DNA of 64,000 nt from Nitrospirota bacterium (lineage in GTDB: Bacteria; Nitrospirota; Thermodesulfovibrionia; Thermodesulfovibrionales; Magnetobacteriaceae): NCBI GenBank assembly GCA_015233895.1, contig JADFXG010000001.1, forward strand, positions 372,001 through 436,000, given 5' to 3'. The stretch's first letter is position 1; each line of letters opens with the position of its first letter. Below are positions 48,394-52,715 of the stretch, piece after piece. The position numbers and the translations under genes are program-made. The notes below the pieces were generated by a model. It ran no database searches. It had not been told where the DNA came from and was given only the letters and a program-made list of their open reading frames with translations.

Positions 48394-48468
48394 CGGGGCG
48401 TAGCGCAGTCTGGTTAGCGCACCTGCCTTGGGAGCAGGGGGCCGGAGGTTCGAATCCTCTCGCCCCGA
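48394..48468 (+). tRNA. tRNA-Pro (anticodon UGG)
   Basis: 75 nt. The acceptor stem is CGGGGCG (48394-48400) pairing with CGCCCCG (48461-48467), with discriminator A. The D arm contains AGCGCAGTCTGGTTAGCGC, the anticodon loop CTTGGGA gives TGG, and the T arm is GGAGGTTCGAATCCTC. CCA is not encoded. A T7 run follows directly and probably ends transcription. Confidence 0.95.
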
Positions 48469-48534
48469 CTTTTTTTCTTAAGGTTAATATACTGGCGCGC
48501 TACGTAAAATAAATATATACCGCAAATTTGCTCG

Positions 48535-48795: not shown

Positions 48796-49080
48796 ATGAG
48801 TGCTATTGAAATATTAAAAAAACATGAACAAACAATAAATCAAAAATATGGTGTCAGGAAAATCGGCATCTTTGGCTCCTTTTCCCGTGGGGAGGAAAGA
48901 GAGTTTAGTGATATAGATATTCTTGTTGATTTTAACGAAGGGGCAAAAAACTTTGACAACTTTATGGAACTCAAATTTTTCCTTGAAGACCTTTTCGGCA
49001 GAAAGGTGGATTTAGTAACGGTTTATGCGCTACGGCCACAATTTAAAGAAAGTATCTTAAGTGAAATAACTTATGCATAG
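48796..49080 (+). CDS. mntA: MNT-type nucleotidyltransferase antitoxin
   Basis: 94 aa minimal nucleotidyltransferase. The active-site pattern is GIFGSFSRGEEREFSDIDIL with the third Asp later in RKVDLVT. In MntA-HepT systems, MntA adds AMP groups to the HEPN toxin HepT and so neutralises it. It has AAGGTGATG upstream. It overlaps the HEPN gene by eight bases. The short length and position leave little doubt. Confidence 0.92.
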   Translation: MSAIEILKKHEQTINQKYGVRKIGIFGSFSRGEEREFSDIDILVDFNEGAKNFDNFMELKFFLEDLFGRKVDLVTVYALRPQFKESILSEITYA

Positions 49081-49417
49081 AAATTATTGGCTATACCTTG
49101 AAGATATACTTATGGCAAGCAAAAAAATTATAAAATATGCCGGAGATATTTCTTATGAAAATCTTTTACAGGATGAAATGCGTATAGACGCCATAATTAG
49201 AAATTTTGAGATAATAGGAGAGGCAGCAAGCAAAGTTCCATCAGACATAATTGAGAAATACCCATTCATTTCATGGCGTAAAATAACTGACTTCAGAAAT
49301 ATACTTGCCCACGAGTATTTTGGAATAGATTATGATATTATGTGGGAGATTATCAAAGATAAACTTCCTGCGCTTCAAAACGATATTATGAGTATTTTAG
49401 ATAATGAACATAAGTAA
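49073..49417 (+). CDS. hepT: HEPN-domain ribonuclease toxin HepT
   Basis: 114 aa, all-helical. The HEPN catalytic motif R-x4-H is seen as RNILAHEYF near residue 83, and the upstream RIDAIIRNFEIIGEA is typical of HepT. HepT cleaves RNA when not modified by MntA. It follows mntA with an eight-base overlap. Downstream to 49569 there is no gene. The pair is placed just after tRNA-Pro, a usual site for acquired DNA. Confidence 0.93.
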   Translation: MHRNYWLYLEDILMASKKIIKYAGDISYENLLQDEMRIDAIIRNFEIIGEAASKVPSDIIEKYPFISWRKITDFRNILAHEYFGIDYDIMWEIIKDKLPALQNDIMSILDNEHK

Positions 49418-51520: not shown

Positions 51521-52345
51521 TTAAGAATTGCACGGTTTTACAAAAGAAGCCGGCTTTCTGAAGATATTACTAATTACAATTACTGCAACAATAGCAGAAC
51601 TTATGTACTGTGATGTGGAAAAACCGAAATATATTCCACGAGGAGTATCTCCCCGTAAAAATTCAAGAAAAAACCTTACCACGCTATATGTAATAAGATA
51701 GACCTTTATAATAGTTCCGTTTTTAACCCCTCCCTTATTGTACATTATGTAAAGTACAGTAAAAATGCAAAGGTTACATATTGATTCAACAATCTGAACC
51801 GGAAATACCGGTAGCGAAACATGGCTGGTATAATTAATAAGACCCTCTCTTATCTGTTCCCTGTAGGCATGTGACCAAAGGGGATATTCAATGCACAATG
51901 GGCCGTTACAAACCACACCAAAACAACAACCTGCAAGAAAACATCCTATCCGGCCAAAGGAGTGGGCAAGAGGGATATAAACACAAACAATATCCAGAAA
52001 CGGATACATCTTCATTTTCGATACCGTGATTAATATTAGAAGTACACCAAAAGTTCCTAAAAGACCGCCAAAAAAGACAAATCCTCCCCTTAACGTAATT
52101 AATCCGGTATCTGAATAGTTATTTACCACTGAAGGTATCTTTGACAATAGAAGGCCCATGATTAGGCTTACAATAAGAAATAAAAGATATTTCAAAGATA
52201 AAGCATGTAGCCTTAATTCTCTGTGGATAAAGTATAAAAAAACACAGGTGCCAATTGCTGCAAAAACCCAATAACCGTGTAAAAATATCTTAGCGAAAGT
52301 AACCCCGAAGTAACTGAAGAAATAGTAGAAAAACGCTCTTCCCAC
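51521..52345 (-). CDS. Lgt-like prolipoprotein diacylglyceryl transferase homologue
   Basis: 274 aa, six or seven transmembrane helices. Lgt family landmarks are GGFVFFGGLLG, AHSFGRIGCFLAGCCFG and FSTSQYISS near the C-terminus, with FFLEFLRGDTPRG as the distal arginine motif. Lgt adds diacylglycerol to the lipobox Cys of prolipoproteins. This copy follows a Cys-rich small protein gene by 28 bases, so it may be a dedicated paralogue for that substrate. Whether it is the only Lgt in the genome cannot be told here. Start GTG 52345 has no strong ribosome binding site. Family is clear; substrate is inference. Confidence 0.82.
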   Translation of the reverse strand: MGRAFFYYFFSYFGVTFAKIFLHGYWVFAAIGTCVFLYFIHRELRLHALSLKYLLFLIVSLIMGLLLSKIPSVVNNYSDTGLITLRGGFVFFGGLLGTFGVLLILITVSKMKMYPFLDIVCVYIPLAHSFGRIGCFLAGCCFGVVCNGPLCIEYPLWSHAYREQIREGLINYTSHVSLPVFPVQIVESICNLCIFTVLYIMYNKGGVKNGTIIKVYLITYSVVRFFLEFLRGDTPRGIYFGFSTSQYISSAIVAVIVISNIFRKPASFVKPCNS

Positions 52346-52373
52346 AGATTAGGTTAAACTCTTAAAACGCAGG

Positions 52374-52715
52374 CTAACAACCTCCAAGGTCGCAAGCATC
52401 GCAACCTCCGCAATCACAGCTGTCGATGCAGCCCCATTCACATCCTGAGACAAACGTGTCGCCGCAGCCGCCATCGCAGCCACCGGAATTACCATTTGGA
52501 GTATCTTTTCCGGGTAGTTCTTTCTTTGTTTTCATATGTCCCGATACTCTTGAGGCCCCAATGTGATAAGTATTTAATTGTTGATTTAAATTATCGCTCT
52601 GACCATTAAGATAATAAGAAAAAGCAAGAAATCCAATGGAAAAGCAAATATTTACAATACATACTAAAATTACTTTAGAATGTCTTACAAATGTTATCCT
52701 CAAGAAATCATTCAT
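52374..52715 (-). CDS. Membrane-anchored peptide with a Cys/Gly/Asp-rich C-terminus
   Basis: 113 aa. A positively charged N-terminus and one transmembrane helix (about 14-35) are followed by a 40-residue hydrophilic linker and a 34-residue tail from residue 80 to 113. This tail has nine cysteines (80, 84, 92, 96, 100, 102, 105, 108, 113), Gly and Asp, and ends in GGC. There is no recognised lipobox near the helix. It precedes the Lgt-like gene in what looks like a two-gene operon. The tail could be a metal-binding or post-translationally modified element. I do not recognise a family. A start at ATG 52715 is assumed. Confidence 0.65.
   Translation of the reverse strand: MNDFLRITFVRHSKVILVCIVNICFSIGFLAFSYYLNGQSDNLNQQLNTYHIGASRVSGHMKTKKELPGKDTPNGNSGGCDGGCGDTFVSGCEWGCIDSCDCGGCDACDLGGC

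Follow-up and report, generated by a model that had tools for sequence, protein, structure and literature searches.

Descriptions of Lgt usually present a single housekeeping enzyme that recognizes one N-terminal lipobox; the E. coli enzyme is active on the outer side of the cytoplasmic membrane. In the MYXO-CTERM/myxosortase system, a C-terminal region with a GC-type cysteine is the predicted target of lipidation by an Lgt-like enzyme; there, a membrane span follows the cysteine and is removed by a CPBP protease (PMC11980579). DAG-RiPPs are small cysteine-containing peptides that bear diacylglyceryl-cysteine, formed by the housekeeping lipoprotein pathway at one N-terminal lipobox cysteine after MNIO modification (PMC12636315). 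In Bacillota, DUF4190/CCC-motif proteins (PF13828, NF040945), which are small membrane proteins with C-terminal cysteines, are encoded beside a GCC-type Lgt.

The window analyzed here, a 64,000-nucleotide stretch of a Nitrospirota genome (G000), encodes an Lgt homolog next to a small membrane protein with a cysteine-rich tail. The enzyme resembles Lgt (PF01790, TIGR00544; E. coli structures 5azb/5azc) in fold (Z = 19.6, 249 residues) and in six essential positions, but differs from the housekeeping enzyme in being a second copy, in three active-site changes, in a TIGR00544 score below the cut-off, and in its Cys-tail gene neighbor. The small protein shares with MYXO-CTERM proteins a C-terminal region with GC-type cysteines, but has an N-terminal span and many cysteines at a free C-terminus. 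A MYXO-CTERM-type signal (Cys motif, then a C-terminal span and an Arg-rich end) was not found, the sole span being N-terminal, and no CPBP-type protease gene was seen beside the pair. Unlike the DAG-RiPP system, the pair includes its own, putatively dedicated Lgt, and an MNIO gene was not seen next to it. DUF4190 proteins differ from the peptide in being multi-span and poor in cysteines, and show no sequence similarity to it. In agreement with the initial annotation, which knew of no described system of this form, a literature search (subscription journals outside its reach) gave no pairing of an Lgt paralog with a Cys-tailed protein.

The Lgt paralog and the Cys-tail protein

Both genes lie on the minus strand, with the Lgt homolog 28 bases downstream of the Cys-tail protein gene.

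51521..52345, minus strand: Lgt paralog (PF01790, GRIGCFLAGCCFG type), 274 aa, GTG start; assigned by profile match, AlphaFold2 model, and residue mapping
52346..52373, minus strand: 28-base gap between the Cys-tail gene and the Lgt paralog gene (ORF coordinates)
52374..52715, minus strand: Cys-tail protein, 113 aa, ATG start; ORF with dN/dS of 0.06 versus G003 and without Pfam or NCBIfam match
52374..52478, minus strand: Cys-rich tail (C80-C113, CDGGCGDTFVSGCEWGCIDSCDCGGCDACDLGGC) with stop codon, candidate region for modification; residues unchanged in G003

The initial annotation had described this pair exactly (a single-span protein of 113 aa with nine cysteines in its last 34 residues, a 28-base gap, and an Lgt homolog), and its placing of the pair between a phosphoesterase and core genes matches the PF04185 phosphoesterase found to one side and the RNase H-like and recombinase/surE genes found to the other. 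A promoter/terminator scan gave fewer promoter-like sites than shuffled sequence.

The Cys-tail protein is composed of a short basic N-terminus, one span (approximately residues 14–37), a polar linker, and the Cys tail; no known family was matched in Pfam or NCBIfam. The tail from C80 to C113 makes up the last 34 residues and contains nine cysteines, the last of which terminates the protein (...DLGGC). At a nominal cysteine content of 1.2%, the probability of nine cysteines in 34 residues is approximately 2e-10 for one such stretch, uncorrected for scanning. Comparison with the gene of the congener G003 gave 15 synonymous and four non-synonymous differences (dN/dS of 0.06) with 11/11 cysteines kept, indicating a real gene and ruling out a spurious ORF.

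The Lgt paralog matched PF01790 with an E value of 1.5e-34 and scored 78.2 bits against TIGR00544, below the equivalog cut-off of 118.9; the enzyme belongs to the PF01790 family and has the Lgt fold but is not an equivalog-level TIGR00544 member. Its dN/dS versus G003 was 0.33. The AlphaFold2 model (pTM 0.84, pLDDT 87) aligned with E. coli Lgt (5azb) at Z = 19.6 and an rmsd of 3.5 over 249 residues, the next entry reaching Z = 7.5. Residues Y25, R132, G143, Y220, R224, and R231 align with the essential E. coli residues Y26, R143, G154, Y235, R239, and R246 (the Y25 assignment is from alignments A3/A4; the phmmer alignment begins at residue 86), and the catalytic Arg pair is kept. The likewise essential H103 and N146 of the E. 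coli enzyme are not kept and correspond to F92 and C135, giving the catalytic-cavity changes His103→Phe, Asn146→Cys, and Glu151→Cys. In a 39-sequence alignment, the H103 position was occupied by Tyr in 34 rows and by Phe in three, and the active-site Cys positions were present in every row except canonical Lgt; GCC-type Lgts have mostly Tyr for His103 and always Cys for Asn146. Tyr, Trp, or Phe at H103 and Cys at N146 occur naturally among Lgts according to a 2026 survey, in which the Leptospira N146C Lgt complements E. coli in part (PMC13251419). The combination of Tyr and Cys was also seen here in sole-copy Lgts. As the E. coli variants H103A/N/Q/R/Y are all inactive (Mao et al., PMC4728403), Phe92 could, by analogy, mean a changed or lost activity of the paralog.

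The genome contains three PF01790 genes with scores of 278 bits (canonical), 120 bits (pair Lgt), and 39 bits (very divergent). The canonical lgt, for which the initial annotation had suggested looking, is located on contig 9 and has the motifs GRLGNFINGE and FHGG. The pair Lgt is therefore a paralog, and a housekeeping assignment was ruled out. A dedicated second lspA was also ruled out: the only PF01252 gene of the genome is on another contig, leaving the pair without a dedicated signal peptidase. At least two PF01790 matches were present in 11/11 genomes with a Cys-partnered Lgt, the second match in G097 being a partial gene where a contig begins.

Conservation of the pair in Nitrospirota and Bacillota

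Lgt orthologs were found in three of 60 relatives, namely G003 (88% identity) and G013 and G017 from another genus (approximately 40%), and a Cys-tailed single-span protein is encoded directly upstream in 4/4 Nitrospirota orthologs. Between the two genera, the peptides are only 23–29% identical, with 18 invariant columns, six of which are tail cysteines by alignment. A lipobox ([LVI][ASTVI][GAS]C) at the N-terminal signal was absent from the peptides of G000/G003 and G013, and the G017 peptide had a single lax match (LLSC). Lipobox-like tetrapeptides within the tails (VSGC, LSSC, LAGC, VTGC) were not counted as evidence because they are expected in Gly/Ser/Cys-rich sequence. Among 396 genomes of Nitrospirota, the three with the Lgt subclade (E < 1e-100) were exactly those with the peptide (E < 1e-39); G017, the fourth genome with both genes, derives from the search of the 60 relatives and was not among the matches of the 396-genome draw. 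Pair carriers in Nitrospirota were confined to these four genomes from two genera, and no orphan peptide copies were found in the phylum beyond a marginal match in G010 (E = 0.008). The phosphoesterase gene adjoins lgt in G000, other genes do so in G003, and nucleotide-sugar genes are located upstream in G013/G017. Thus, the pair and not the region is the conserved unit. In G003, the RNase H-like gene is separated from the pair by a Cache-domain sensor gene (PF08269, L135:8887-9405) that the window lacks at this position.

Scanning 84,980 species genomes with the alignment of four Lgt sequences and then surveying ORFs gave Clostridia Lgts with an upstream Cys-rich exported protein at loci L058 and L069. 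Relatives were searched with the Lgt sequences of these two loci, not with the partner sequences, which added L165, L166, L167, L168, and L195 for a total of seven Clostridia pairs (the L167 partner is incomplete, close to a contig end). A Cys-rich gene is located directly upstream of the L058 Lgt, of its four closest homologs found (at least 44% identity), and of both L069-type Lgts, with the partner stop within four bases of the lgt start in most pairs (the L195 lgt start is uncertain). These partners are Cys-rich lipoproteins, the complete ones with 11–17 cysteines and a lipobox or near-lipobox; the standard or near-standard lipoboxes of Bacillota partners (IAGC, LTGC, LGGC, FSGC, LMSC) stand ahead of the Cys-rich body. 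The NF058595 ("lipo-invert") model matched the L069 partner only at a chance-level E value of 0.1.

The pair clade of Nitrospirota (4/4, support 98) and that of Bacillota (7/8, support 97) are placed apart in the Lgt tree, where well-supported branches require the pair label to change at least twice; a single ancestral pairing with many later losses is possible. Under a strict automatic definition, a Cys-rich exported neighbor was found at 8/180 GCC-type Lgts (11 with L069, L167, and L195 added by eye), which is not a natural frequency because the locus set was enriched by searches around known pairs. The informative number is the background of zero: by the same definition, such a neighbor was found at 0/16 canonical Lgts and 0/554 other genes in the same loci. 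The two findings that the initial annotation would have counted against the pairing, a sole lgt in the genome and homologous Lgt genes without the peptide, did not refute it: a canonical lgt is present, and all close homologs have an immediate upstream Cys-rich partner, in Nitrospirota and separately in Bacillota, and more distant homologs have other partners or none. The functional pairing that it proposed is strongly supported by this conservation and by the recurrence in two phyla. The pairing of Lgt and Cys protein is well supported as real and as conserved in both phyla, each with its own Lgt clade.

Among the Bacillota GCC-type Lgts that rank next in closeness, many follow a multi-span DUF4190 protein with an ACVACVG-like end and no N-terminal lipoprotein signal. 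At least two cysteines in the last 40 residues were present in 38/39 Lgt-adjacent DUF4190 proteins versus 1/18 non-adjacent ones (Mann–Whitney p = 3e-9, a value that is too small because the sequences are related); the adjacent set was recognized with an HMM whose seeds were Lgt-adjacent members, a choice that may favor Cys-bearing ends, and Pfam scores were low for several of the proteins. Even so, the cysteines go with the Lgt neighbor and not with the DUF4190 family. The lipobox-like Cys ends (ACVACVG) of Lgt-adjacent DUF4190 proteins at L197, L198, L175, L182, L200, and other Bacillota loci suggest that these proteins are possible Lgt substrates with a C-terminal lipobox. The three partner types have no detectable similarity to each other, and all have cysteines after a membrane span or signal.

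Proposed tail lipidation and competing explanations

We regard the evidence as evenly balanced on whether the two genes constitute a pair dedicated to lipidation, in which a diacylglyceryl transferase would serve the exported cysteines of its neighbor. We infer that the neighbor is the substrate, that a phospholipid is the donor, and that more than one cysteine is used. The full proposal, in which the paralog would attach diacylglyceryl to several cysteines of the partner tail and the enzyme class would serve at least three unrelated Cys-bearing families, is tentative and somewhat unlikely to hold as a whole. In the proposed mechanism, the N-terminal span would hold the small protein in an N-in, C-out topology, as predicted by the charge rule from the basic N-terminus and the single span, and the Cys-rich tail would be exposed at the external surface of the cytoplasmic membrane. 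The second, GCC-type Lgt would then move diacylglyceryl from phosphatidylglycerol to one or more tail thiols, in a reaction like that of housekeeping Lgt on a single lipobox cysteine, and the tail would be pinned to the membrane through a thioether-linked lipid; cleavage would be unnecessary because the tail would already be exposed. Multi-site or C-terminal cysteine lipidation, as suggested in the initial annotation, would fit the predicted topology, the modeled Lgt fold, and the missing lipobox in G000/G003 and G013; overall, the interpretation given there is supported in part. For Bacillota, single-site lipidation by a dedicated Lgt is possible because the partners carry ordinary N-terminal lipoboxes, and their own lipobox may be the modification site.

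If the pair is indeed dedicated to lipidation, thioether lipidation would also be deployed in neighbor-directed ways, with internal, C-terminal, or multiple cysteines as conceivable sites, and with multi-site reading the partner would be a multiply lipidated surface protein. The link of extra Lgts to small exported-Cys proteins of unrelated families and phyla makes the question of Lgt paralog function directly testable.

The Cys-rich tails are likewise compatible with metal binding or disulfides. The partner may thus be a membrane-anchored, metallothionein-like metal or redox protein that the paralog only anchors N-terminally, alone or with few others, its Cys cluster never being lipidated; we consider this a serious possibility, though not a probable one. 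The regular CxxC/GC spacing resembles that of thiol metal sites, and the position of the Bacillota lipoboxes before the Cys-rich body agrees with such anchoring. However, the same enzyme type accompanies peptides without a lipobox near the span in G000/G003 and G013, the DUF4190 partners lack an N-terminal lipoprotein signal, and for ordinary N-terminal lipidation the second copy would be redundant because these genomes have another Lgt.

A repurposed Lgt fold that performs another thiol modification, with another lipid or a prenyl donor or by thiol–thiol transfer via the active-site CxxxxCC cluster, appears improbable. It would account for the three changes in the catalytic cavity, and other donors or mechanisms have been proposed for some divergent Lgts in the 2026 survey (PMC13251419). 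Against it, the same Cys signature is found in sole-copy Lgts, some of which are located downstream of ileS, so that the signature alone is not a sign of new chemistry. In 10/11 Nitrospirota genomes and 10/10 Lachnospiraceae genomes that were tested, a GCC-type Lgt was the sole PF01790 match, so that this type can presumably perform the housekeeping role.

A chance or hitch-hiking neighborhood without joint function would agree with the few Nitrospirota carriers, the accessory location, and the changing flanks, but is strongly disfavored by the recurrence in two separate clades and two phyla, the abutting or overlapping genes, the 0/554 background, and the strict co-occurrence across 396 genomes.

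Other lgt genes and a neighboring module

The third, extremely divergent Lgt-fold protein (355–369 aa, GRLACISFGCCYG) was found in the genome itself (contig 17, L003:1318-3464) and in the congener (L163:264-2409). In both species, its gene is located directly 3' of a phosphatidylserine decarboxylase-like gene (PF02666, E = 5e-39), and a phospholipid-related use of the Lgt fold is possible. The congener G003 has a canonical lgt on each of two contigs (L140 and L150); these genes are closely similar and may reflect a duplication or an assembly artifact. In the window, positions 48796-49417 (plus strand) encode an overlapping MntA-like nucleotidyltransferase (PF01909) and HepT-like HEPN ribonuclease (PF01934), a module of the toxin–antitoxin type that adjoins tRNA-Pro at 48394-48469.
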